Positions 6,601 through 64,000 of a DNA stretch of 64,000 nucleotides are shown piece by piece. A program made the position numbers and the translations under genes. The notes under the pieces are model-generated. The model saw only the letters and a program-made list of their open reading frames with translations, searched no databases and was not told where the DNA came from. The stretch's first letter is position 1, and the number at the start of each line of letters is the position of its first letter. Source of the stretch: Diadema setosum (taxonomy: Eukaryota > Echinodermata > Echinoidea > Diadematoida > Diadematidae); the NCBI RefSeq assembly GCF_964275005.1, contig NC_092686.1, forward strand, positions 16,279,190 through 16,343,189, read 5' to 3'.

Positions 6601-9600
6601 TTTCTGCAAATTTCTTTGCAATAACTCAAGAAAAACAGCCCCTATCACCCCAATATTTTGCACATGTTTAGTTCATGTCACGTACATTATTTCATTAAAT
6701 AACAACTACTTGATCAGACACCATCTTGGGTATGTAAATTAGGGTCAAAGGTCATAATTGGTTCATCCTGTATCTTGGTGAATACATGTCCTATCTTTCC
6801 CATATTTTGCACACGCAAAGACCATTTGTACATGGATCATTTTATAAAATAATCACTTTTTGCTCAGACACCATCTTGGGTGTGCAAAGTTGGGTCAAAG
6901 GTCAAATATACTTCATTCTGTATCTTCTTTAGTGTATACAGAATTCGGTACCAAAGATGGCAGGTCTGACTCCCTTTTCTAAATGAGAATCCAAACATCA
7001 CACAGCCAATGTCCCCTCAACACTATGATGAAACCTGTACGTTACCATTTGGATCAGGACTCAAATCATTGATTTACGAACAGATCGGATCACCTAATTT
7101 GTCAGTGTTGACAAATTCCAAGTCTAGTTACGTCTGTAACTTTTACACCACAGAGTAATAGCATTGTTAGAGTTCCACAAAGGATCGTGGGTATTAGGAG
7201 TGAGTGGCTACCATCTTGGCTACAACTCTTACTTTTCATACTTTATTGAGTTGCCTTTGGTCAATGGAGAGAGAGAGAAAGAACAGGAGGGAGCCAGGGA
7301 GAGAGAGGGAGGGAGAGAGAGGGAGAGACAGAGAGAGAAGTTTGCACCACAGTCTTATTGATGGTGGTATGTAGAAGTACTAGGAAAGAAAAAAGTAAGG
7401 TCCTGTAGAAATGGTCACAGGAGTTGAGTCATGTTATATGTCCAGTCACTAACAAGGGATTTGCCTTGCTCTGGCGAGTGGCCTTCAGTGAGCAAATGGG
7501 ACGTAATTAGTCAACAAATTGTAGCTCGTTCACTTCACAGATAAAACGCTTTTACGAGCAGTTGAGATATTGTAGAACAAAGGGAAACAAAAACACTCTA
7601 CATTACTGTAGTATGAAAGGAGCGTTTGCTGTCCAGTCTTCCATGTTTAGTGTAGCGGTTATAATATTGTATGTACAGTTTATATTGTTGACTCATATAT
7701 TGCACTGGGATTTGTCTGGCATACTAATGTATGGAGGGTTTATGGGATGAAATGTCATTTGTCATGATGGTTCATTTCTACCCCAAATACATACTTTTAT
7801 CCAAATGAGTAAATGAGTAGCATTTTGTAGCCAATGTACAATAAGGTCAAAAATCAAGGTCAAAGAAGTCAAAGGTCAAAATTCTGTGTAGAAGTTTTGA
7901 AGCCCTCACCTAGTGCCATCACATAAAGCAAACAGAATCGAAATTGGGTTAGAAATGGCGAAGGAGTAGCATTTTGTAGCAAAATGTACAATATAGGTCA
8001 AAAATCAAGGTCAAAGGTCAAAGAAGTCAAAGGTCAAAATTCTGTGTAGAAGTTTTGAAGCCGTCACCTAGTGCCATCACATAAAGCAAACCGAATCGAA
8101 ATCGGGTTAGAAATGGCGAAGGAGTAGCATTTTGTAGCAAAATGTATAATATAGGTCAAAAATCAAGGTCAAAGGTCAAAGAAGTCAAAGGTCAAAATTC
8201 TGTGTAGAAGTTCTGAAGCCCTCACCTAGTGCCATCACATAAAGCAAACGGAATCAAAATTGGGTTAGAAATGGCGAAGGAGTAGCATTTTGTAGCCAAT
8301 GTACAATATAGGTGAAAAATCAAGGTCAAAGGTCAAAGAAGTCATAGGTCAAAATTCTCTGTAAAAGTTTTGAAGCCCTCACCTAGTGCCATCACATAAT
8401 GCAAACGGAGTCGAAATCGGGTTAGAAATGGCGAAGGAGTAGCATTTTGTAGCAAAATGTACAATACAGGTCAAAAATCAAGGTCAAAGGTCAAAGAAGT
8501 CAAAGGTCAAAATTCTGTGTAGAAGGTTTGAAACCCTCACCTAGTGCCATCACATAAAGCAAACGGAATCGAAATCGGGTTAGAAATGGCGAAGGAGTAG
8601 CACTTTGTAGCAAAATGTACAATATAGGTCAAAGGTCAAGGTCAAAGGTCACAACTGAAATTCTGTATAGAAGTTTCAAAGCTCCCATGTAGTGCTATCA
8701 TATAAAGCAAACAGAATCAAAATTGGCTCATAAATGACAGAGAAGTAGCAAATTGAACATTTTGATCACACACGGACACACACACACACACACACACAGG
8801 GACACACACACGTACAGAGCCCGTTTCATAGTCCCCTGCTCGAACTCGTTCGGCTGGGACAATTAAAAGTATCCCTCAAGAAATTCAATTTCATGTTCAT
8901 ACTCAGACAAACTTTTAATCTTACCTTGCATTGATGATTGAAGTCCAGAATCAAAAGCTCTGCACCTTTTGCCATGAGGAAGAGTTCCCTATCTCCAAAC
9001 TGTTGAAATGGATCAGGTTTTTTTCTGTAGTACAGCAGATATGCATCCATTTCATCTGCACTGTATGACATCTGGAAAGATCAAACAGACAAAGACTATC
9101 ATCAGGGATGCCAAGTTCAAAAAATATTTATGAGTGAGATTTTCATAACTCGGCATCTCGGCATGCGAATGTGCGCGCGAGCGAGGGCGTGGGAGGGGTT
9201 TTTCCCCCTGTGGCCTCCCACGGTAGGGAGCTTTTTCAATTTTTAGCTCTTAATGGTGCGATCAGGTGCATACTTAAGTGACTATTTTTTACTTAATTTG
9301 AAAGACAAAAGGGAAATATACCTTCAAGTGTAACTATCACTTTAATATTTTGAGCTATGCTCATTATATAGGCCCAAGTTGCAGACTTCGCCCGATGCGT
9401 GAGAAAAATGGGTGTCATGCGTGAGATCGTGAGATGGCCCCTAAATGCTTGGAGACTTGGTAGCTCTGTATCATTGAAGTCCTGTTTGCTTGGTACTCTT
9501 TTTTTTTTTTTTTTCTAGATTATGATGTTGCAAACTACTTCAGCAGTAAACTAACTCTCAGGCCATGAGAGAGATCTATATTCCTGAAAACCTTTGCTAT

Positions 9601-22910: not shown

Positions 22911-24455
22911 CAAGTTCCATATTCCACATTCCATATTCAGGCTTCATATTCCATTTGATTTCAGAGTAAAATATGTATAACGCAACATTCAATTGTAGAC
23001 ATAATTTCACAAATGTATAAGGACATGTAATAAAATGATGTGTAAATATGAGGAACCTACTAAAAAGCAATGCTTGTAGGATGTAGGTTCCAAAGAAACA
23101 ATATAAGCGTTTAGTACAACATGCTAAATTACGAAAGATGACGAAACACAAGCGAAAATCGGTATGTCGAGATGATAATAAACTCTACACAATGTACAAA
23201 ATAGTTTATGATGGTCAAGGTAAAACTCAGGGATTCAATGCTCCATAAAATTGCACTATTGGTCAAAGAAATATAGTCAAATGAAGTCAAATGAAGACAC
23301 CCGAGCGAGGCATCATTGAGAATAAGAACAGATATATCAAAATGGTCACAGCAAGTAACTATACATAAGATTGTAAAAAATTGGCTTTTAGATTTTGCTT
23401 AAAGGAACTTAGAGAACTTGATTGCAGCCGAACAGAATCTAACTCATTCCAGAAAGAAGGACCGGTAGAAGTAATTGTCTTAAGGGCTAGAACTGTACGA
23501 ACGGGAGAAAAGTGATATGATCCACTTTGTCTTGTAGGGTAATTATGAATTTCACTGTTTTTAACAAACATTGAGGAAAATAAACTAGGAAGATCGCCAA
23601 TGCTCAACTTATACATAAAAATTCCAACGTGATACAAATACAAATCAGAAACTTTTAGTAATTTACTGGAAACAAACAATTCATCTGTATGATCCAAAAA
23701 ATGTGCACGATTTATAATCCGCAAGGCCTTTTTCTGAATAAAAAATAACGAATCTATTTTAGTCTTAGAGCAATTACCCCAAGCCAATATTCCGTAATTT
23801 AAGTAAGGTAATAATAGAGTTGAATAGAGGGAATGCAATATTGGCTTGGGGAAGAGGTACTTCAATTTGTGAACAACTCCAACGTTTTTACACAACAACT
23901 TACATAAATAATCAACATGAACCTTCCAAGAAAGATTACTATCAATATAAATACCTAAAAATTTTGTTGAATCTATTTGATTTAACTGCAAACCATTCAC
24001 TAATACTGAACCTGGAAGAAACTTTATTGTATTACTAAAAACCATATAATTAGTCTTGTTTATATTGAGCGATAATTTATTCGCCTGTATCCATTCAAAT
24101 ACCAGTTGCAGTTCGTTATTCACAGAATCAAGCAACACATAAGGATCTGAGTGAGAATAAAAAAGACTTGTGTCATCCGCAAACAGAAGAAAAGACAGCA
24201 GAGAGGATGAGTTGCGGAAGTCATTAATATAAAGAATAAATAAAAGAGGACCTAAGAGGGAGCCCTGTGGAACGCCACAGCAAATCGAACCTATTTCTGA
24301 GTCGTGGTTATTCACAGTAACAAACTGAGTTCTTTCGGTAAGATAACTTCTGAACCACTCCAAGGCCTTTCCACGAATGCCGTAATGATTTAATTTGTAC
24401 AAAAGTATTTCGTGGTCTATTGTGTCAAAGGCCTTGGAGTAGTCCAGAAACAAGC
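22911..24455 (-). mobile_element. 5'-truncated non-LTR retrotransposon with open RT frame
   Basis: The open frame reads from about 24455 to the stop at 23359. It starts inside the reverse-transcriptase core: [19 protein letters not shown] (motif A region), [20 protein letters not shown] (motif B), [12 protein letters not shown] (catalytic FADD, motif C), [13 protein letters not shown] and [15 protein letters not shown]. The C-terminal tail has [20 protein letters not shown] and [15 protein letters not shown] 3' UTR follows to a TTGAATAAAAAA-type poly(A) tail at 22911-22876. The tail style suggests a CR1/Jockey-group element. The 5' end is truncated at a TAAA-rich tract (24466-24540), whose in-frame translation is not part of the element. 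The frame has no stop, so the copy looks recent. Confidence 0.85.
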
Positions 24456-24559
24456 CGACTGTATATTGATAGATAGATAAATAAATAAATAAATAGGCCC
24501 TATATAAATGCATAAATGGATAAATAAATAAATTGTGTTTAAACAAAAACAAACAAACA

Positions 24560-25320
24560 AAGCAATGGGAGATTTCTTAAATATGGAAAAGATCTTACAT
24601 ACAAACTCAGTTGTGAGGTGATAACATCATCATCTCACTATTTACATAGGCCTATAATTCATGCTGACAGGTCGAGCTGTTTTAGGTATAGACTTCATAA
24701 TTTCTTACTTCCCTAATTTTTATCTCTGATCAAAATTTTCCCTGTTATGCTTGTAAAATGTTATACTCTTTCTTTTCAGCCTATTAAACTTTTGAATGGT
24801 CCGGAATTCCCCTTCGGTGAATAAATGTATAATTCATGCCCTCCCCTGCCTATAGTAATACACGTTATTATTTCAGATACAGCCCAATATACCACTGTGA
24901 TAGTCTGTTCAAATCACTAGTATAGTAGTACATGTACAACCGATCAACATCAAGGGTCTGACTATCACATCTAAGTGCTGAAAGGCCGCACGCCGCGCCG
25001 CCTGCGCATCTTCAGAGAATCCAAACACTGTCACATGACTTTCCAAATGATCACCTGATTGTTTCGTTTTCGGGTACAGTCATACAACATGTATTGAACT
25101 AGACAAGTACTAGAGTAGTAGTATACACACAATTTGAGGTTGAATAGAAAACGTCATCCTGACCGTCATTAATCGCCGTAGCGTAAAGGAAAAACAAATA
25201 CAAGGCTTGCTTGTTGAAATAAAGATCGCTCTGCACACATGTCATCGTCCTGGTCGAGTAAATCAAGGCGCTAGTACAGTATAGTATTAGTAATCAGGTT
25301 AATCGTCTCGTGCTCGTACT
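24560..25320. other. Region upstream of TXNL4B
   Basis: No gene or clear repeat was recognised. The last few hundred bases (CGATCACGATCACTACGCGAC at 25335-25358) are richer in CpG than the surroundings and are the likely TXNL4B promoter region; this is inferred only from position. Confidence 0.4.
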
Positions 25321-30539: not shown

Positions 30540-31178
30540 GGTGAAGACTTTTGGTAAAATATTAGAATTTCAAAATATTAAGTCATAAATATTGTATGAG
30601 TATTTTGTTACAGTTTTACAAGAACTGTATACCCTGGAAATAAGATATGGTGAAGTGAAGTATGATTTCACTGATAAGGAAATTAGAAATTTATTTATTA
30701 GACCTAGAAGTACGACTTTACTTATAGTAAACATAGGGCATTTCAGTTTAAGTTGTTACACGGGGTGATATATACAAGGGAACATTTGTTTAAGTTCGGT
30801 TTTGTGAATGATAATCTTTGTTCTTTTTGTCAATTGGAAAGGGAAACTTATTCACATATATTTTTTGATAGTGTGAAAGTAAAGCCAATATGGCAGTTTC
30901 TTATTGAGTATTATGATTTAGTTGAGTTAGAAGAATTAGAATGGAGAGATGTCTTCTTGGGTTTACGAGGTAGTTCAAATCGAATCAAATGCGTGAATGC
31001 CTTGATAATTTTGATGAAAATTGTAATATTTCGGTCAAGAGAACAAAATAAGTTACCCAAGAGGGAAAAGATAAAGAAATTTGTTTTGGATTTCATAGAG
31101 GAGGAAAAGAACGTTGCGGTGAAAGCAGGTAAGCTTGGCTTTCATTTGCAAAAATGGGAGCAGTTGAAACTTTCATAG
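30540..31178 (+). mobile_element. LINE ORF2 3' end with zinc-knuckle-like tail
   Basis: The frame ending at 31178 gives 141 codons. It carries FKFGFVNDNLCSFCQLERET then YSHIFFDSVKVKPIWQFL, the CxxC...H-type region that follows the reverse transcriptase in L1/Tx1-like elements. Upstream in-frame fragments (from about 30600) look like the end of the preceding core. The RT itself is missing, so this is a 5'-truncated copy. The DR1-bearing element begins 11 bases after its stop codon. Confidence 0.6.
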
Positions 31179-31189
31179 AGAGTGTTTTT

Positions 31190-31965
31190 GTCCCCACCGA
31201 ACAAGTTCGAGCAGGGGACTATGAAACGGGCTCCGTACGTGTGTGTGTCCGTCCGTGCGTCCGTCCGTGCGTCCGTCCGTGCGTCCGTCCGTGTGTGCGT
31301 CCGTGTGTGATCAAAATGTTCAATTTGCTACTTCTCTGTCATTTATGAGCCAATTTTGATTCTGTTTGCTTTATATGATAGCACTACATGGGAGCTTTAA
31401 AACTTGTACACAGAATTTCAGTTGTGACCTTTGACCTTGACCTTTGACCTATATTGTACATTTTGCTACAAAATGCTACTCCTTCGCCATTTCTAACCCG
31501 ATTTCGATTCCGTTTGCTTTATGTGATGGCACTAGATGAGGGCTTCAAAACTTCTACACAGAATTTTAACCTTTGACTTCTTTGACCTTTGACCTTGATT
31601 TTTGACCTATATTGTACATTTTGCTACAAAATTCTACTCCTTCGCCATTTCTAACCCGATTTCGATTCCGTTTGCTTTATATGATGGCACTAGTTGAGGG
31701 CTTCAAAACTTCTACACAGAATTTTGACCTTTGACTTCTCTGACCTTTGACCTTGATTTTTTACCTATATTGTACATTGGCTACAAAATGCTACTCCTTC
31801 GCCATTTCTAACCCAATTTCGATTCCATTTGCTTTATGTGATGGCACTAGGTGAGGGCTTCAAAACTTCTACACAGAATTTTGACCTTTGACTTCTTTGA
31901 CCTTTGACCTTGATTTTTTACCTATATTGCACATTTTGTTACAAAATGCTACTTCCGGCGGGGAC
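31190..31965. mobile_element. Tandem-repeat element carrying DR1 arrays (copy 2)
   Basis: The element begins GTCCCCACCGAACAAGTTCG and ends CTTCCGGCGGGGAC, giving short terminal inverted repeats GTCCCC(A/G)CCG. Inside are a CGTCCGTG tract (31236-31310) and about five 155-160-bp units, the reverse complement of the 7.8-8.9 kb copy. Perfect TGACCTTTGACCT words lie at 31425, 31438, 31583, 31741 and 31898. No transposase is present. The order of parts is collinear with copy 1. Confidence 0.88.
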
Positions 31966-51874: not shown

Positions 51875-54800
51875 ATGGATATGGGCGACCACTCTCGTCC
51901 CACCCAGGATGGATGTGGGCAAGGAGCACAGAATCTGGAGTTGACATCACAGCATGAGTCACAGCCTGTCAAAAAGAGACGCATTCAAATGAATGATGCT
52001 CAGTGCCTCAGCCACGCAATGACATCAGATGGGGCAAAGCCTCTCACACACCCAAGCACGCAGACACTGACCAAGAAGCCAAAATGGGATGTCAACAGGG
52101 GACTTTACCCTAGACAGAGGAGTTGGCCCAGTGCATCACCAAAATGCCCTCCCCATATTCCTGGTGTTCAGTCAGTTGGTAAGACACAGAACTTTACAGA
52201 TTCAAGCCTCAGTTCCAAGTATTATCCTAGTGGGACTTCTGCTTCACCAAGGAAACAAACTCCCAGCAGTTCACAGAAGATTCCTAGTGCCAAAAGTGCC
52301 ACTGCTACATCATCAAATGCTTCACCTATGAAGCAAACTAGTCTCCACAACTTTTTCTCAGTATCACCAAAAAAGAGTGCTGCATCTTCAAGGAACTTAA
52401 TGACCAAAGATCAGCCCAGTTGCTCTTCTAGTGTGATCGAAGACTTTGAAAATGACAATTCTCTCACTACTGATGATTTTGATGTCATAATGAATAAAGC
52501 TGAGAGTCCCAAGAAAAAAACTCAGTCCCTCAAGCAAGAGAAACTTGGAGCCCCACACCATTCCACATCGTGTGCAAATGAGCAGAAACGGTCAAACGGT
52601 CTTGAGGAATTTGAACAAGATGATTCCATCACGGCTGATGACTTTGATGCGGTCTTGTTTCTGTCACAAAGTCCTGCCAAGGAGACAAATGCTTCTCGGC
52701 AGACACATGACTCGGATGAAGTTGTGTTTGTGTCAGAAAGTCCTGCCAAGTCGGCTACTGGATTTCAGCAGAAAACTTCCAACCCATCTCTGGATGGACC
52801 AGGTCCATCCCAGGGGCCTTGTACCTTTGGTCTGCTTGGAGAGGGCTTCCAGACACCTGACATGGACTCTGCAGAGGATGGAAGTTCCAGGGAGTACTTT
52901 GGAATCCTCCCTGATGAGGTGGTTGAGAATATCCTTGGCCAGCTACCAATCCTGGACATATATCTGACTGCATCCAATGTCTGTAAGAGATGGAATGCCA
53001 TCATATCAAGACCACACGTAAGGCTGCTATCACCAAATTTATTACCCTTCTCCCCACCCCACCCCCTTTTGCTGATAAAAAGATTACTAAGTTAAGGCTC
53101 TGATGGAGTTACAGTTTGGGTTATGGAAACATTTACTGGAGGAAGTAGAACTATGAATATTTAGTCAAAAATGTTATGTCTTGCAGGGCAGATATAATTG
53201 CTGATCTGTGCTTATTTTTTGCATTAATATTATTGTATCAGTGTACCCAGATATGGCAGAAATGGTGGCTTGATTGCTACAGGTATGACAGGGTATGAAC
53301 TTGAAGGGAACCTTGCTTTTGTAGCGGCAAAAAACCCCAACAACAACAAAACATGAAAAAAATTCAATAAATTTCAAATCAAACATGCAAATGACATTTA
53401 TGATACAAATTTTTGATATCTAAATGCATATCACACAAGGCATTAGTAAGTATTGTTCACTTGGTAGTTTGAAACTCGTGAACAGTTGGAAACGCATGAG
53501 GCAAATCTGAGTGTGTTTTGGCTCTACACTATGCAACTATAATAATTGCAACCAGACTGCAAATTTACTTTTCAATGGTAAACTGTAAGTGACAGAATGT
53601 AAGCTGCATGATGAAACATTAATAGTTACTTGCTCCTGTTTCAGTTTGTTCAGTGGAAGAAGCAATACTATCAGCTGAAATTGCTGCAAGGTAGGGATCA
53701 AATGAATGCTGTGCAGAAGCCTTTAGAAGAGTCTGGAGAGCTTACGAAGCGGAACTGCCTTGTGCAACTCATCAAGTGAGTACCCGAGTCAAGTTGCAGC
53801 AAATGTGAACAATATGTCAAATTTCCACATCAATATTTGTGCATCTGTGTCTTATTATTTGACTGTGTTGGTCTTGTTGTAAATGTTTCCTCATGTTTAC
53901 TGATGAAGCATTGGATTTTTCTGAGGCATAAAACTAAAGACTTGTGTGTCAATGTATTGTACCCTCCTGTTGAGATTTCTCTTACCTGTTCCAGTATACA
54001 GTCAACCTTGCTTAAGTCGACCTCACATAAGTTGAATAATCACCAAAGTCAAAGGTCTTTTCAAGTCCTCTGTATATTTTATTGATTTTAATCCCTCATA
54101 AGTTGAATTTTCTCTGAGTCGAAGCTATTTCTTCAGTCCAAATAGATTTGACTTAGGCAAGGTTGACTGTACATGCATTTTACATCCACTAACTTCTATG
54201 TAAGTTTTAGAAATCACATGCTACTGAAGTACAAATGAATTGAGACCTGAGTTAATGCATATTATTTACGGAAGTATATTATCTACCAATGTGGATAATT
54301 TTTTTTTTCTTTCTAATTTCCTTGTATGAATTTGCTCAACAGATACATGGGAACTGTCAGAGTCCATTCTGTGGGAGCCACTGAGTGTCTCAAATATCAC
54401 CGAAGGTTCCGTGCAGCTTGTCAGGTGTTGAAGGCAAGGGCTCCAGAAGTCTTCTCCAATCAGGTATATATTCCTAGGATTCTATCCAATATTACAGTTG
54501 GAAAAAAAAAGAGAGAAAATCTTTCACTGTGGTGTTGTATAACTCTTCAGACTGTCATAGTACTTGTTTTGGGTATCTTAATGCTCTGAGGATCATCATC
54601 TTGAAATGACATTATTATTACCATACACAAGTCGCCAATGGTAACTGAAAGAGTTAAACCCGTGCAACACACTGTGGTGCACAATTTTCTGATGTGCAGT
54701 ACTCCTCTCAGAAAGTAGTGTAAATGTGGAATATTTTGTTGTTAGAAAACCGTTAACGGTGTTTAAACCACTGATGGGGCTACCCTGGGTAAAGAAAACT

Positions 54801-57800
54801 GAATAAATAAATAAATAAATAAATAAAACCCTCGCCATGAAATAATAGCAGGGCATAAACAGGTACAGTTTTACATTGGTATGTGCTGAATGACATTATA
54901 TGTGGACATTTGCACGCATGTTATTTGCTACATCTCGACACCTTTGTTCAGACAATTTGAATTTTAAACCTGCAAAATTGGTCTTGGCTAGGCACAAAAC
55001 CTTTCAATTTTCAGTTTTCAAATTTAAAAAAAAATCATGACACTACACAAATTATATTCTTCTGTTTGTTTAGTGTGCATCAGCGAAATTCTGAGAGCGC
55101 TTTTGAAAAATAGGGAATTACAACAGAACAAATGCGATAATGCCAGTTGGTAAATGCTTCATGTAACTTAATCTTTTTTAGCTGGCTAAGTAAGATGAGT
55201 AAGTAGTACACTGTGAAAGTGAAAAAAAAAAGGCTTATCTCTAGTTTGGTGTACCATACATTTGTGTAATGGTGTACTATAGACAATTTTGGTTTGACAA
55301 GAGCCCCTGTAAATGGAAGTCAATAATGTTGATGCTCTGTTTGTTATTCCAGGAGCCCCACTCATGGTCGCTGGTGGCAGCTATGGTTGTCCTGTCTGAG
55401 ACGGCTCAGGAAGTCTGCCAGATTCTCCGCAACCTTCTCCTCACAAAGGAGCCAGTTCAGCGACTTGACCTATCTGAGTGCTTGTACTGCATCGCAGCAG
55501 CACTGTTTCTTTTCCAGCAGAAATTCAACATCAACAGAGGGTGAGAGATTAAATGTGTACCAATTGTCATTTTTGAAATCCTTTGTGTCTATCAACTCAC
55601 TTCTGGTGCAGAATTACGGGTTCCAAACAACTTTCAGGAAGTTTTAGGCAGTTGGTTAACACAAAATTGTTTTGATTAGGGGATTAGAAATGCAAAAAAA
55701 AAAAAGTGCTATTGCAAACTCATCTGAGCCAAAAACGCGTTTCTGTAGAGTTGATAAACACAAAGTCGTTTTGAAACACATAGCTCAGACCTTCCCACGC
55801 CAACCACTGCCAACTCCACATCTCTGCTTCTTGGGTCAAACTGCGCAGTGGAGCTGCGCAGTGACAAGTCCTCCCAATTGACTCATGACAGAGTTGATAA
55901 ACACAGCAACTCAAGAAAGGCTATCCAAAATCCATTTGCAAAATGCAATTTGATAGTGGGTATTGAAATGCAGTTTATTACAACATGGGAAAGTTGATAA
56001 ATAACCAAACTAGAGCTATCCTAACATTGGGACAGACCTAGCCCTGAAGGGGAATTTTATGCCTCTCTAGTCAGTCAGTGAAACATTACCCAAGTTGAAA
56101 AGACTTCATCTCCGTCAGTATCAGGATAAATGTATTGCTTGATGTATGGACTTATCTTGGCTGCTATCTGTTCAGCAGACCTGCACTCTTCAGGAATACA
56201 TGTACTGTAAAAGTGGACACTTTTGCTGTGTGGAAATTTATGCACACTTTGCACAACCAGAAACTAGTGCAAAAATAGAACTACGATATTTCTGCTTGTT
56301 ATATGTCCACACTATGTAATGCTTAGATTCCGGGAAATTAAAACGTGGAATTCGTCTTACTTCGCTGAGCGAAGAAAAAAATCAAACGATCCTCTTTTAC
56401 ATTACTGCATTTGGGCTTGTGATATGTCCACACTATACCCAAAACATCAAACAATATTTCTAAAACCTGAGAAACTATCAGTGCATGATATTCCACAGAC
56501 AATTGATTTACAGTTCTGTGGTAATGACTTTCATTCAATACAAATTTGTATGTATTGAATGTTTGTAAGTTCATACAGTGCACTCCCGTTACAACGAACA
56601 CGGTTATAACGAAATTTCGTTATAACGAAGTCAATCGTCTGGTCCCAAAATTATCACCATTAAAGTCTATGCTACAAAATTCGCCTATAACGAACACGGT
56701 TATAGCGAAATTTCCGTTATAACGAAGTCTTTTCCGAGCGCCACAGACAAAGAAAAACAAAAGAAATGTGCTCCGTTATAACGAAATGCGAATTGTTTTC
56801 GAAAATATGTAGCGGAACAAGCATTTATAGCGTCTCTGTATGGGTGAACGCTTCACACCACTGTGTGTTCGCTCCTTGTGTCACGCACAGTTTCTGAGGG
56901 GAACTTGCGTTTATTATTGTAATACAGTTATCCCATCACATTTCACATAGCTTTCCAGTGTATGATGAGTATTCAGCAAACAGAATATGTTATAGGACGT
57001 GGTTTCCTTGTTTTCGTTATATTGTATTTGTTCGGTTATAACGAAATTTCGTTATAACGAAAGAAAACTACCGGTCCCGAGCATTTCGTTATAACGGGAG
57101 TGCACTGTATAAGTTTGTACATAATTGTACCGAATGTGTGTCCTTATGTATGAATGTGTATGCATGTATACTGTATATGTGTTTATAGAATAAACACCCA
57201 TGTAAACATACATGATTATGTAGATATATTCGTAACCAATGAAGTTTTGTGTCCCATGGTCACTCACATTGGTCAGTCACCATGTCACTCTGATCTCCTC
57301 AGCCCACACTACCGGGTCTTCTACGCACTGCACAAACTAGAGAGCAGTGGTCCTGGTGACAATGATGAGCTCTCGGACACTGCCAAACAGAGCTCTTCTG
57401 GTCAGCAGTCTTTGCTAAGATACGGGTAAGGATCGCAAAATGGTCACCTCTTTTTAGGTGATGATGTAGTAGCCTTTCTAGTCTCCCATTGGCCTGTACA
57501 TAGCAAAAATACTAGTAATCATGCAAATCATTCTGCCAATGATAACCCAAATTTGCAAATGGCTTCCCTTTAATGGTCTCTCATGTTTTGTCATTACAGT
57601 TCATAAATTATTTGATGTCAAGCATATTTCATCCAAATCACAAGATGTAATTCAGTGGAAATGCATTTGCACAATATTAGGAGAGTGTTCTGAGGCATTT
57701 ATTTTTTGTTTGTGTAATTGTGACTACTATTAAAGTTTTATAGATATTTTGTGTACATACAATTTGTTTCTTCTCCTTTCTTTATTGAGAAGACAGTATT

Positions 57801-60800
57801 TCATTGATGATGGATATGGCAGTTATTGGTCAGTTTTGATGCAAAAGAGTTGACATAGTGGTTTGGCTTTCATCTCCTTGTTTATTCAGGCAGCGGAAAG
57901 GAATCGATCTCACCCCAGAGCAGATGCGTATCATCAACCACAACCTCCAGCCCACAGACTGCATCAAGATCATAGCCTTTGCCGGTAAGAGATGCCACAC
58001 GTTTGAGAGTTTGTATTGATGTTGGACTCTCAGTCAGAGGGATTATAGGTAGATATGCCACATCATCTTTCAGTGAGGTAAATTATCCACACTGGTGCTC
58101 TGTACAAGTAGAATCATTAAACATGTCCACAATTTTGAGAGATATATATGACAGAAGGGATACTTTGGCAAGATGTGCTTCTTTTTTTTTTCCATGACTC
58201 TTTTGAAAGAAGTCTGGGATGCCCATTATTCCATCAAAAAAAAAAAAAGAAGAAAAAAAGCCAGATTAAAAATCCAGTGATGCTGTAGTCATGACTTCCT
58301 ATTAGGAGTCTTGTGTCATCATCCTCTACTAACAAGAATAGCAGGATTATGCAGTCTTTATTTTTCCGACCATAAATCAGGTAGAGGAAAGACCAAGGTA
58401 GAGAAATGCATGCTGTGTCAAACCCATTTAGCTTCCAGATGGATAGTGAAAAGGGATTTTGTCTCATCTTCTGAAAGGAACATCAGGGGGATTTTGATGT
58501 TTATTTCCCTGTCTTCCATCTCTTCCATCTAGGAACAGGAAAGACGACCACGTTGATTCGCTTTGCTCAGCTCAGGCCCCATCTCAACTTTCTCTACATT
58601 GCTTTTAACAAGTAAGGCTGGAAACTTCGATGACTTTCATATTTTGAAAGAAATTATGATTATTTGAATCATTATTATGTAAATGTGTTGATAAGTTCCA
58701 AGTGTTCATGCACATAAACAATATGATAAAAATCACTTGATTAAGAAAACATGATTTAAAAGATGTTTCAGTGGAAATGAGATTTCATCCATTCATTTAT
58801 TTTTCCATTTCCAGCAGAAACATTTTTTTTTTTTTTTTCAAACCAAAGTTGAATGCATAAATTACTTAACAATTATCAATAAGAGAAGTTTATAATTTTG
58901 CAAAATGTCAGATCTTTGTCAATGTATCACATTCTGATCATGTATTCTGCAGCTGTATTAAGGAATATTTCCTCCAGGATCATCAGTAGAAATTGATCAC
59001 TTTTAGTCTTACATGGCCATTTAATGGGGTCGTGAGAATGTAGGCACTCATCTTCGAGTCTTATCTTGTAATGAAGTGCCCATGAACCAATAAAGCGTGA
59101 CAGAAAAATGATGCAAGTACAGAAACAATCTGAGACCACTATAACTATGATATCTCTCACTTTATCAGAAAGCTTTCCATATACTCATAGGAATGAAGTC
59201 ATACCAACCTACAAATCAAAATTTAAAAGCACCAGTATTCTTCTCAGAAGTGCAACTAGAATCTGGTTCATTACCCAAAGGGATGTCTGACATACATTCC
59301 ACATTCTGACATGAATGCTAAATTGATGATATCACTGTGATGCTGTATGCAAAACTTGCCTTACATACAAGAAGTGGGTGTAGCTTGAAACTGTTAGTGA
59401 GCTTGCTTGAATACAGGAATGCCAGGTCAGCAGTTAAGCAGTTATACCCATGTGCACAAAACTAAAAGAAGTGCTAAGAGAAAGGAACAATTTTAGTTTG
59501 TGCCCTTTGTGCTTTTATTCTCAAGTACTTAAAGATGTTCCTGAATGGAATCAGATCATGAAGGCTAAACAGAGTGATTTGCCAGATGAAGTCAAGATAC
59601 ATAATTATTATTTTTTTTTTGGTATCTTTTGATATGTGAAGGTCTGTGCAGGAAGAAGCACGTAAGAAATTTCCACGTAATGTTGAGAGTCGAACGCTCC
59701 ACTCGTTGGCCTACAAAGCAGTCGGGTTCAAGTAAGTATGAATGTACAGAGTGAGTCAGAAAAAGTGTCCCATCCAAATTTGAAGATGTCTTGTTTGAAG
59801 TATGAAAATTTAATCATGGATTTCATGATATGTCTTGGTAGAGTTTTCCTCCCAGCATTTCTTGCACCCTTTTCAATTAGATCTTTGCTGCATGGATGAC
59901 TGAATAACAGTTTTGCTGTATAATCTCTGTATATCTGTGTAATTCGACTTTTAGTTGCCGACTCAGATTTTATTTGAATAAAGACCTTTTAATCAATCAA
60001 TCAATCAATCAGACAATCTTTAGAAGACTGCAAAATCTCACTTGTGCCAAGTGGCTGGATGAAGATTACAACAAATTTTGAAAGAATATATTATTCATGT
60101 TCACACAGTTCTAATTGATGTTTTGATACCTTTGCTATTCGTATGCACTCAGATAATAGCATGCAATCTCAAATCAAGAAAGTATTCAGTGTTGAATGTT
60201 CCATTATTTAAACATTCAAACCTGCTCTAGTGACCCCCTTCCTATAATGATCACCTGCCCACAGTGACCACATGGAAGTCCTAAGCTGAGAATATGCGTA
60301 GTTTAGATCTGTTTACAGTGACCACCTTCCTAACTTGACCAGTGAACAGAGTTGATATTCACTGGACAACTGACAACTGCACAATGACCTTCCAGCAGTG
60401 CACAGCTTGCTATAGCTATATTAGCTGCTGCATCAAACAAATGCCATTGAAACTTCTCTGTGGTTTGGCAAGTAATGATCATTAGAAGGGGAAGGGTGAT
60501 TACTGTAAATGCAGAAATTGTCACATTTTTGTTCATTTTCGTGTATTTCTCACTACTTTTGGCTGGCACGAATTTTAAAACTCGTGAAAATATTTTCAGC
60601 AGTTTCTCTGCACGTTTTGAATGGGTTGACAATTATGAAGTGTGAATTCAAGAACCTGTGAATGTGTTTTGAGATGCTCATTGTGAAAAATTACTTTTGT
60701 TAAAATATGGACGTTTACAGTAGCTAACAAAAATGATGTTATGTATTAGTATAAGTGTATATGTTGTGGATTTAAATAAAATATAGTGTCTTGGTGTACA

Positions 60801-61616
60801 TGTATAATTCATTTTGGACATTGAAAATATCTATTACGATGGCTGCTACATTGAACCTATCTACAACTACCATCTTTATGTAATGACCATGTTTCTTGTT
60901 TACCCTGATTGGTCATTGTAGCCTGGTTTGAGTGTATATAATAGAATATAAGAGGACAGCCATGTTGGAAATGGAAACAAATAGTGTTCATCATTAATGT
61001 TGTGTGTAAGGTACAGTGGACTCCCGATATAACAAACTCCTGGGGACCAGCAATTTTCTTTTGTTATGTAGAAATTTCATTATAACCGAAAAAAATAAAC
61101 AATAAAAAAGAACATAGAACGGATAATGTTGCAGCCTGAATATTTACTTCATCGTAACCAAAATTTCATTATAACCTTGTTCGTTATCGCAGGAGTGCAC
61201 TGTATAGAAAAGTACCAAAGTTTGCTATAGGAGAATTGAGAAGAATGACAAGCATATTAAGCAATTGCCTTATATGTTACAGGATAACCCTAGATGTATG
61301 AATTCTTGCTTTGATTATCAGATATCGCGCCAAGATGGGCAGTGCTCTGAAGCCATACTTCATAATGTCTGTGCTTCCGAAAACGGATGAGAAAAAAATC
61401 CACCACATGACGCTGGCAAAGCATGTCTGCACGACCATCAACAACTTTCTTGCATCAGCGGATGGCTTTATCTCCACAGCCCACGTCCCACAGATAGATA
61501 ACACCTCTCGCAAGGCAATTGAGCATGACGTCAGAATGGTAGGAAACAGCTGTTGGTAACTAGAATGGTTGCAGCAGGAGTGTTGATTGTGTTAGTAATT
61601 GTGGTGGTATAGGTAA

Positions 61617-61680
<64 letters not shown>

Positions 61681-63822
61681 GGTGTTAGTTAGTAGTAGTG
61701 GTGGTGGTGGTGTTAGTAGTAGTGGTGGTGGTGGTGTTAGTAGTAGTGGTGGTGGTGGTGTTAGTAGTAGTAGACGTAGTAGTAGCAGCAGAAGTAATAG
61801 TAGTAAAGCAGTAGTAATGATTGTTCTAGTAGTTTTAGTATTTGTTGATCTTTTGTTATTATTGTTGTTGCTGCTGCTACTGTTGTTGATGTTATTCATT
61901 GGTCACTGTAGAGCAGCAACATATTTGCAACACCTCTGTGGATGGCATACCACTCAGTTGGCAAAGTCTCTCTTTCTCTCTCTTCGGTCCATCAGATCAT
62001 TGCCAGTGCAGCAGAGAAAGTGTTCGACGCCCTCTGTGACCTGCGGAATATCGAAACCAGGATCACCCATGACAGTGAGTCACCGACTTCCTTGAAATTT
62101 TGAGTACCTTTAGTTTCCCTGAAATCAGAACGATTGATGTATCCTGTCACTTGTAAGAATTTATAGTTGCAGCCATTTAAAGGAAGCTTATGTTTGGTAA
62201 CTGCTCCATGTAGTCTGTGAACAAGACTACCAGCTATCACCTCACACTCATCGCCAGAGAAATGGCATCTTAGATGTACTGTACATATCCAGCGCGCAAC
62301 ATTAGTGGTGATCTGCTGGCCTTGGGCCACTAAAGATTGATGTCAGACCTCCAAATTTCCCAAACAGGCTGTCTTTTGGTGGCCCAATTGGGCACATAAG
62401 AACAGATGGATTGTTATATGTATCTTTTCATATACTACATTTCTTTCTTGGGCCACCAAAACTTCAGATATAAAGATTTTAGTGGCACAAAGAGGCCACC
62501 AAAGAAAAGAAGTAACTGTTTAGATGTAACATATTCATACTGTTTTCTCCAATCCCACACAAAATTTGCATGAAAAAAACAAAACAAAACACAAAACATA
62601 CCCACCTGCCTCCCATGAAATTTTTTTTAACTTGTTTGACTGTCTTTATGCTGCTTTTTCACAATTTAGATGGAAATACATGAGATATACATTACTTTTG
62701 CTCTGATAATATTCAGAAAGAGAAAATGTGAGCTGCTTTCATCTTCTAATGAATATAGTTTGTCTATAAAAAGGCTAATTTAAAAATAACAACAACAACA
62801 ACAACAACAACTCTGTAGTTAGTATCTCTTCCGCATAATCTGTAAACCATGTATCGATTTGCTTGCAGTTTACCTGAAGCTATATGAGATGCAGCATCCA
62901 GTCTTGGATGGCTATGACTGTCTTCTCATCGATGAGGCCCAAGATCTTACTCCAGGTGAGAAGTTCACTTCCACTTTGGGACAGTGTTCTGGTCTATCCA
63001 ATTCAGTTTATAGATCATCCTGACGCTGGGTTAATGTGATTCTTATTCACATATCTTGGTTTATGTCTCATGCAGTGGTGTTGTGTTCTTTTTAGGGTTT
63101 ATGATGTTATGTTGGTCATTATTTTGGAGTGTACAGGCACTGATAAACAATGTTTCCAGCAAGATAAGTCTGAGCTGCATCCTTCTGCCTGTTATCAGTT
63201 TCTCTGATATTGAATGAAAAAGATGATAATGAAAAAAAAGAAAGATTGTTAGAAAATAAAATGTAAATGGTTTAAATAAAGTGCATCCATGCCATCCATT
63301 CCAACACAGACTTAGAGGCCAATAGGCAACATCAGACAATTTCTTAAATTGAGCCCCTGCAATGTCCTCTGAAACATGTACATGTGTTAGAACCACCCAT
63401 ACTGTTAATCCTTTAACCCGTTGAGGACGAGTCCCGAGTATACTCGGGCAGGTGTCTATGGGAAATGCGTGTTGTAGCAAAATCAAACCGTCCTCAACGG
63501 CTTAAGTAAAAGAATTACACAATATCTGACTTGCCTTTCAGTGGGATACTGACTGAAGCTTACGTTGTTGATAGATTTGTTGACTCCTTTGATGAGTTCA
63601 TTTTGTACTGTGGTGCAATACCTGTGTGTTGCAGCACCAGTAGTGTAGGTTGGATCCCTACCTGTCTGGTTGTTTCCTTCCACAGCTCAGCAGAGTATTC
63701 TCCTCCGCCAGAACTGCGCCAAGATCCTGGTGGGAGACCCGCACCAGCAGATCTACAGCTTCCGCGGTGCCACCAACGCCATGGCACAGGTGACGGCTAC
63801 CAGAATCTACCGACTCACAGAG
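51875..63822 (+). CDS. FBH1: FBH1 (FBXO18), F-box DNA helicase 1, 3' end outside window
   Basis: Coding exons: 51875-53017 (acceptor at 51713, in-frame TAG just upstream of the ATG), 53645-53775, 54343-54463, 55353-55540, 57303-57425, 57890-57984, 58533-58611, 59642-59731, 61322-61538, 61996-62074, 62869-62955, 63686-63822. All phases join, giving 830 codons; about a quarter of the protein lies beyond the window. N-terminus: GLYPRQRS as in human, PIP box QTSLHNFF (154-161) for PCNA binding, and acidic repeats ADDFDAV/TDDFDVI (about 196-265). F-box near 341-381 (ILPDEVVENILGQLPILDIY), which recruits SKP1-CUL1. UvrD/Rep-type helicase: LTPEQ Q-motif (577), Walker A AGTGKTTTL (600), HSLAYKAVG (motif Ia), IDEAQD Walker B (776), VGDPHQQIYSFRGA (motif III, 800). 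The family is a 3'-5' SF1 helicase and ubiquitin ligase that removes RAD51 and processes stalled forks in the nucleus. Confidence 0.95.
53999..54169. mobile_element. Pogo/Tigger-like MITE, TA target site
   Basis: CAGTCAACCTTGCTTAAGTCG and GACTTAGGCAAGGTTGACTG are inverted ends with TA on both sides. Interior words (CATAAGTTGAAT, TAAGTTGAATTTTC) pair. 171 bp, in an FBH1 intron. Confidence 0.85.
54740..54835 (+). mobile_element. LINE 3' tail fragment
   Basis: ACTGATGGGGCTACCCTGGG then AAGAAAACTGAATAAATAAA and further AAAT units is the same tail style as 22730-22805. Only the tail is present. It is in the FBH1 intron before the exon at 55353. Confidence 0.5.
55640..55995. mobile_element. Decayed foldback of the GTTTATCAACT family
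   Basis: AGTTGATAAACACAAAGTCG, GAGTTGATAAACACAGCAAC and GGGAAAGTTGATAAATAACC words, with ATTTGCAAAATGCA-type inner repeats, relate it to the 10.6-11.5 kb cluster. The left end is TTCCAAACAACTTTCAG. It lies in an FBH1 intron. Confidence 0.55.
56576..57107. mobile_element. Pogo/Tigger-like MITE, TA target site
   Basis: CAGTGCACTCCCGTTACAACG and CGTTATAACGGGAGTGCACTG are inverted ends with TA on both sides; the inner arms repeat GTTATAACGAAATTTCGTTA. This end sequence closely resembles Tigger-type elements. 532 bp, in an FBH1 intron 195 bp before an exon, with no transposase. Confidence 0.9.
60214..60936. mobile_element. Decayed MITE of the TCAAACCTGC type
   Basis: TTCAAACCTGCTCTAGTGAC and ...GTAGCCTGGTTTGAGTG are inverted, with GTGACCACC/TGACCACATGG words like the GCGGCCAC arms of the 44.2 kb element. 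The ends have lost the exact CAGT. About 720 bp, in an FBH1 intron. Confidence 0.6.
61014..61202. mobile_element. Pogo/Tigger-like MITE, TA target site
   Basis: CAGTGGACTCCCGATATAAC and GTTATCGCAGGAGTGCACTG are inverted ends with TA on both sides; the interior has repeated TTTCATTATAACC. 189 bp. It lies 120 bp upstream of the FBH1 exon at 61322. Confidence 0.85.
61612..61880. repeat. (TAG)n / (TGG)n microsatellite
   Basis: TAG array at 61615-61670, then four units of (GGT)n-GTTAGTAGTAGT at 61671-61770, then GTAGTAGCAGCAG and TTGTTG runs. Poly-Ser/Gly and poly-Thr open frames over it are artefacts. It lies in the FBH1 intron between 61538 and 61996. Confidence 0.9.
63413..63505. mobile_element. 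Compact TTAA foldback with CCCGTTGAGGACGA ends
   Basis: TTAACCCGTTGAGGACGAGT and CCGTCCTCAACGGCTTAA are inverted ends with TTAA on both sides. The inner sequence holds the palindrome CCCGAGTATACTCGGG. A partial relative lies at 45097. 93 bp, in an FBH1 intron. Confidence 0.8.
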
Positions 63823-64000
63823 GTGACTGTCACTGCCAACGTTGTCATGCCACCAAGCAGAAGTGGAATAGTCTCTCTTCAAAGACACCAATCTTGCTTT
63901 TGTTAAATTGTCTTCCTTTAAAGATGGTGACTTAACACTAATAGTTAAACCAGAAACATTTGCACATGAAACTTTTGCAAATTGGAGCTGACAGCCTTTT

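Follow-up and report, generated by a model that had tools for sequence, protein, structure and literature searches.

Two diverged copies of an ATRIP-like acidic segment in the N-terminal tail of FBH1 from the sea urchin Diadema setosum: candidate docking motifs for RPA

The first coding exon of the helicase gene FBH1 of the sea urchin Diadema setosum contains a short segment that is present in two diverged copies, situated between a PCNA-interacting-protein (PIP) box and the F-box. The exon lies in a 64,000-nucleotide stretch of genomic DNA, referred to here as the window (NCBI RefSeq assembly GCF_964275005.1, contig NC_092686.1, positions 16,279,190 to 16,343,189 of the forward strand), and is that of FBH1 on the evidence of an encoded F-box followed by a UvrD-type helicase, in the order seen in the human protein. 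We propose that the two copies (residues 185–221 and 240–276, units 1 and 2 in Table 1) are a duplicated docking module, and that its acidic heads, SLTTDDFD and SITADDFD, may contact the N-terminal domain of RPA70 (RPA70N) in the manner of the checkpoint protein ATRIP. Docking on RPA70N is the best-supported explanation of the heads; we put its probability, and that of the docking module as such, at about 0.48, with unit 2 carrying most of the case.

When residues 1–335 are aligned with themselves without gaps, the top alignment pairs 185–221 with 240–276 at a score of 94, the highest score among 3000 shuffles being 64, so the repeat is genuine; 16 of the 37 positions are identical. Searched against the whole genome, unit 2 found only itself and unit 1 (E value 9.6e-4; two candidates scored). 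The first-pass annotation of this DNA had described three acidic-hydrophobic copies in exon 1, namely NSLTTDDFDVIMNKAESPKK (residues 195–214, 52457–52516, in unit 1), DSITADDFDAVLFLSQSPAK (residues 250–269, 52622–52681, in unit 2) and DEVVFVSESPAK (unit 3), and their sequences, residue numbers and coordinates all proved exact. The claim that the three are alike survives only in part: copies 1 and 2 correspond in head and tail, whereas copy 3 lacks the head and resembles the tail of unit 2 alone, for which reason an equal triplication was rejected. The tail that copies 2 and 3 have in common reads D-x-V-(L/V)-F-(L/V)-S-(Q/E)-S-P-A-K; 8 of its 12 residues are identical, as are 30 of the 36 bases. 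The pairing is a weaker one, as the runner-up self-alignment, unit 2 with residues 270–299, scores 53 and is matched by 16 of 3000 shuffles.

The codons suggest that the duplications are of different age. Identical codons are used at 6 of the 16 identical residues of units 1 and 2, which is the chance level (7.68 expected from the codon usage of the exon); this duplication looks old, and its synonymous sites look saturated. In the unit 2 and unit 3 tails identical codons are found at 7 of 8 identical residues (3.23 expected, P 0.006). Unit 3 is, judged from these codons, a younger repeat of the unit 2 tail without the head, and the likeness of the two tails therefore carries little information on selection. 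The heads are another case. Between residues 195–203 and 250–258, 6 of 9 residues are identical and the pairs L/I and N/D are similar, while the segments between head and S-P have diverged (IMNKAE in unit 1 versus VLFLSQ in unit 2). Because the head S-Φ-T-x-D-D-F-D (Φ, hydrophobic) was kept past saturation of the silent sites while the stretch behind it diverged, we infer that it is under selection, and this survival is the best evidence that a single genome can supply. It is also what makes us think it unlikely that nothing docks here at all, the tail being no more than a flexible linker phosphorylated by cyclin-dependent kinase (CDK), in which one segment underwent duplication and then drift. 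Such a linker would suit the low-complexity S/T/P/K/Q composition of the tail, from which we take it to be disordered, and the presence of six CDK-type S-P-x-K sites in residues 1–335, where shuffled sequences average 0.34 and none of 20,000 reaches six; moreover, the short isoform of human FBH1 manages without the heads.

The likeness of the heads to known RPA70N partners lies in spacing. Papers are cited here by PMC number, on the basis of excerpts. The contacts of ATRIP with RPA70N are D54, F55, L60, E62, L63 and L66; those of MRE11 include F540, D543, D544, L545 and I548, and those of RAD9 include F298, D301, D302, I303 and M307 (PMC10479964). With the ATRIP sequence taken from the PDB, the pattern Φ-x2-D-D-Φ-x2-Φ (Φ0-D3-D4-Φ5-Φ8) fits both ATRIP (F55/D58/D59/L60/L63) and MRE11 (F540/D543/D544/L545/I548), whilst RAD9 (F298/D301/D302/I303) follows only its first part. 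Exon 1 has exactly two occurrences of the pattern, namely the two heads; at least one occurrence is seen in 398 of 50,000 shuffles and two in none, figures that are only a guide since the pattern was devised post hoc, after inspection of the data, and the two matches are not independent events because the units are duplicates. Unit 1 has a net charge of −7 over 22 residues and unit 2 of −8 over 24, a mixture of acidic and hydrophobic residues as in RPA70N motifs. Hydrophobic moments fail to separate the copies (ATRIP 0.25, copy 1 0.27, copy 2 0.13).

If the likeness to ATRIP is genuine, the units should match the animal's own ATRIP no worse than they match human ATRIP, an expectation that could have failed. 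A human ATRIP query gave one match only in the genome (C2:31329037-31329201, E 0.028, query residues 30–84), where the open frame reads DPFQDFEDSFTADDLEKLDYIESQALSQ, and two more ATRIP pieces follow downstream in order (E 0.082 and 0.024; 20 kb searched). Against the motif encoded there, DFEDSFTADDLEKL, which probably grips RPA, unit 2 scores 42 (equalled in 11 of 5000 shuffles), compared with 23 (1291 of 5000) against human ATRIP, and unit 1 scores 31 (160 of 5000), compared with 20 (1323 of 5000). As background we used windows of 37 residues from six-frame translations of the analysed stretch and six other genome stretches, of which 6602 remained after 5 of 6607 with the ATRIP core had been dropped. 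A score of at least 42 occurs in six of them, five overlapping the ATRIP exon and the sixth being unit 2. Units 1 and 2 share with ATRIP the spacing of Φ0, Φ5 and Φ8, and unit 2 has in addition FE-(x2)-D-S-Φ-T-A-D-D-Φ-acidic and a hydrophobic residue at +11. The FBH1 heads differ in standing in tandem within a helicase, in their I/L anchor in place of F, and in the part behind the head, which ends in S-P-x-K; their binding is putative.

The presumed receptor is also encoded in this genome. The Rep-A_N family (PF04057) has one genome match (E 9.6e-5), and the RPA70N exons read PILQLL, ACKKMNAAPSGKAIDRYRLLLSDG, SAMLATQLNQ...NPIAND and then, in the next exon (E 1.6e-7), RRVIVVLDLEVVKKGGEIGVTLGNPSP. 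Compared with the database-confirmed human sequence, R41, R43 and R91 of the cleft are kept, the R91 codon spanning the exon junction and reading R with the acceptor of the next exon; a K lies near R31, as placed by eye. At the level of the predicted protein, the basic cleft is shown to be conserved in this species.

Besides the post hoc origin of the pattern, several observations weigh against docking on RPA70N. At position +11, which corresponds to ATRIP L66, unit 2 has L and unit 1 has K, and unit 1 is not outstanding in its likeness to the ATRIP of the animal, a score of at least 31 being found in 31 of the 6602 windows. As a whole-genome query the ATRIP motif finds only itself (one candidate scored). 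A profile built from units 1 and 2 and run against PDB chains up to E 10 retrieved no RPA partner, though ATRIP chains were present; its sole matches were two flavin oxidoreductase sequences with SYTRDDYDVVL (E 0.46), a string outside the strict pattern, and similar letters are thus found in an unrelated enzyme as well. Single-sequence and profile searches of the PDB with the units yielded no informative partner. The head letters also suit an ordinary helix start, with a capping box and a hydrophobic staple, and part of the ATRIP likeness may be convergence on such a start. For RAD9 of the same genome, the tail exons found, which we take to be such from their resemblance to human RAD9 (Table 1), are without the strict pattern; as human RAD9 is an RPA70N partner, the pattern is not diagnostic here. 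The search for a RAD9 motif gave one match to the pattern, LGLDDLSRY, which was rejected, since it sits in a 51-residue frame without coding signs. The RPA70N partner motifs have in any case little sequence in common (PMC10479964). Finally, the short isoform of human FBH1 has no Φ-x2-D-D-Φ head.

The heads might instead be acidic amphipathic helices for another receptor, for example the PH domain of TFIIH p62, whose partners carry an acidic core of the form (F/W)-acidic-x-hydrophobic, which both DDFDVI and DDFDAV fit. The region of p53 that binds RPA70N also binds p62. An acid-hydrophobic peptide of p53 is what RPA70N recognises (PMC10479964). The similarity of unit 2 to the ATRIP of the same genome favours RPA over p62, and we regard a p62-type receptor as very improbable. 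We know of no link between FBH1 and TFIIH, no search having been made for one, and this counts in the same direction.

A separate question is what the tails do. Those of units 2 and 3 (DAVLFLSQSP and DEVVFVSESP) could be SUMO-interacting motifs (SIMs), in which case FBH1, with its PIP box, would read SUMO-modified PCNA like Srs2, PARI and Elg1. We consider this somewhat unlikely, though it is compatible with RPA docking by the heads. The sequence VVFVSES after D-S-D-E fits the type-a SIM pattern (at least one in 456 of 20,000 shuffles), and the alternative offered in the first-pass annotation, that copy 3 is a SIM, fits that headless copy better than RPA70N docking does. Hydrophobic cores with S-P within four residues number two (residues 260 and 283; at least two in 77 of 20,000 shuffles), but bare hydrophobic cores are not rare (at least two in 3009 of 20,000). 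Units 2 and 3 together weakly match residues 87–130 of yeast Elg1 in the PDB, a stretch that by counting spans I93, I121 and I122, which are among the residues mutated in elg1-sim (PMC10396338). The match is not significant, however, at E 2.4 with a best stretch of 57, and it ranks last of four, the other three being inositol dehydrogenases. In Srs2 and Elg1 a PIP-type motif is paired with a SIM, and PARI, itself a PCNA binder, likewise employs a SIM (PMC6356670). The arrangement in D. setosum FBH1, a PIP box and then SIM-like strings, is alike, but the SIM is putative, and FBH1 is described in an excerpt of the same paper as being without a SIM, unlike PARI and Srs2; a SIM in this FBH1 would be a lineage difference. 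Unit 1 has no hydrophobic core of the SIM type, and the resemblance of the unit 2 and 3 tails is attributable to their younger duplication.

The PIP box, QTSLHNFF, was correctly reported at residues 154–161 and has the canonical signature Q-x-x-hydrophobic-x-x-aromatic-aromatic; at least one such match is seen in 243 of 20,000 shuffles. The signatures of the PIP box and the PIP degron are given in PMC3973308. We rejected a CRL4-Cdt2 degron, since H-N stands in place of T-D, with P at +4 and K at +5. Human FBH1 is a reported CRL4-Cdt2 substrate (PMC13200063), and as the degron signature is lacking here, D. setosum may regulate FBH1 turnover in another way. The acidic copies had been said to end in S-P-(A/K)-K. 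The endings are present, but they are not specific to those copies: two of the six S-P-x-K sites flank the PIP box, and the motif was accordingly rejected as a mark of the acidic units alone. Around the PIP box there is a weak extra repeat of residues 119–156 and 145–182 (52229–52420; SPRKQT/SPMKQT), with a score of 45 where the shuffle maximum averages 35, and this may be a matter of composition.

Human FBH1 resembles the D. setosum protein in its PIP box, F-box and UvrD-type helicase. Residues 1–176 of our human query are identical to residues 4–179 of PDB chain 9xzj_F. A human counterpart of the units was sought and rejected, as human residues 1–118 against residues 162–318 are equalled in 489 of 2000 shuffles, and human residues 1–40 against units 1–3 in 383 of 2000, with no significant alignment. 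The earlier statement that the human protein has no obvious pair of such repeats thus agrees with the absence of the pattern from the short isoform. Residues 71–79 presumably have their counterpart at the beginning of the human long isoform (score 51, 3 of 2000 shuffles). PIP and APIM motifs recruit human FBH1 by way of PCNA (PMC13200063). Tandem RPA70N motifs are known in WRN and two such motifs in BLM (PMC10479964, PMC7838300), and two also in PrimPol (PMC5457501). These proteins, like FBH1 here, hold two acidic-hydrophobic motifs within one repair protein, although they are measured binders and the FBH1 units are putative ones. Yeast Pif1 combines an RPA motif with a PIP box (PMC11014909); it too is a helicase with a PCNA contact and an RPA contact, the latter putative in FBH1, but it belongs to another helicase family. 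A literature search found no RPA-binding motif in FBH1 among the matches listed, and there is none in the excerpts of PMC10479964, PMC13200063, PMC5441872, PMC11014909, PMC7838300, PMC5457501, PMC9403131, PMC10213050, PMC12330601, PMC6356670, PMC4337903, PMC3973308 and PMC10396338.

FBH1 exon 1 has a single match in the genome (912,680,840 bases, 102 contigs searched), and the search for relatives matched 8 stretches in viral_contigs and 113 in genome_contigs, with 0 confirmed in either. A GT donor is predicted at 53018. Seven further FBH1 pieces follow in order up to the end of the window, beyond which the gene extends, and UvrD-helicase (PF00580, E 3.3e-5) is matched within 63649–63903, with no helicase match in seven other frames tested. 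Elsewhere in the window, a 158-bp tandem satellite forms two arrays in opposite orientation, with 93–94% matches within each; its consensus contains AGGTCAAAGGTCA, a direct repeat of AGGTCA that we take to resemble a pair of nuclear-receptor half-sites. There are also remnants of long interspersed nuclear element (LINE) type, and a GTA-type three-base microsatellite which, lying between FBH1 pieces, is probably intronic.

Table 1. Positions of the features discussed, numbered within the window unless another locus is named.
Feature	Positions	Strand	FBH1 residues	Remarks
FBH1 exon 1, coding part	51875–53017	+		381 codons; low-complexity N-terminal tail and F-box
W-D-V-N-R-G-L-Y-P block	52085–52111	+	71–79	presumably as at the human long-isoform start
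Six S-P-x-K sites	52244–52750	+	124, 150, 164, 211, 266, 289	CDK-type
PIP box	52334–52357	+	154–161	QTSLHNFF
Unit 1	52427–52537	+	185–221	ATRIP-like head SLTTDDFD; SPKK tail
Unit 2	52592–52702	+	240–276	ATRIP-like head SITADDFD; hydrophobic VLFL; SPAK tail
Unit 3	52715–52750	+	281–292	tail only; SIM-type VVFVSES at 52721–52741
F-box	52907–53014	+	345–380	Pfam PF00646, E 2e-8
Further FBH1 pieces	55365–55523, 57876–57986, 58532–58612, 59613–59732 (partly), 61347–61490, 62871–62957, 63679–63822	+		collinear with human FBH1
158-bp satellite arrays	7815–8651, 31425–31953			opposite orientation
LINE-type remnant, RVT_1	23362–24576	−		E 3.9e-24
LINE-type remnant, zf-RVT	30708–31175	+		E 9.2e-9
GTA-type microsatellite	61613–61816			68 copies
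RAD9 tail exons, presumed	L004:1713–2384 and 1127–1348	−		...DDGFDFVPGTPPSKK and ...LAEDSDED, resembling human RAD9

The suggestion in the first-pass annotation that this FBH1 binds RPA through tandem motifs is thus strengthened for copies 1 and 2, given their ATRIP/MRE11 spacing, the conserved cleft and the retention of the heads, and especially for unit 2, which matches the ATRIP of its own genome better than human ATRIP; it does not extend to copy 3. If RPA70N is the receptor, the heads Φ-T-x-D-D-F-D would form a short acidic amphipathic helix, and this helix would occupy the basic RPA70N cleft in the same way as the checkpoint-recruitment motif of ATRIP. FBH1 could then use its PIP box to hold PCNA and its heads to engage one or two RPA molecules on the neighbouring single strand. 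Single contacts of this kind would be weak and would sum only where RPA is dense, that is at stalled forks, and CDK acting on the S-P-x-K tails possibly tunes the docking. A more elaborate scheme, which we consider distinctly doubtful, is that of a three-way reader of stalled forks, in which the PIP box would bind PCNA, the two heads the RPA-coated strand, and the unit 2 and 3 tails SUMO or SUMO-modified PCNA, while the CDK sites that follow each contact would act as a switch. Were this true, one helicase would merge roles that vertebrates split among FBH1, PARI and recruitment of the ATRIP type, and an anti-recombinase and a checkpoint kinase would compete for one RPA cleft.

In conclusion, D. 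setosum FBH1 may be a case of a familiar helicase bearing a recruitment motif that is already known from other proteins. Binding of the heads to RPA70N, if it takes place, would place FBH1 with BLM, WRN, PrimPol and Pif1 among the enzymes recruited by RPA. FBH1 would then compete with ATRIP for the cleft, which would link RAD51 removal to checkpoint signalling, and it would follow that animal lineages can gain or lose a contact of this kind.

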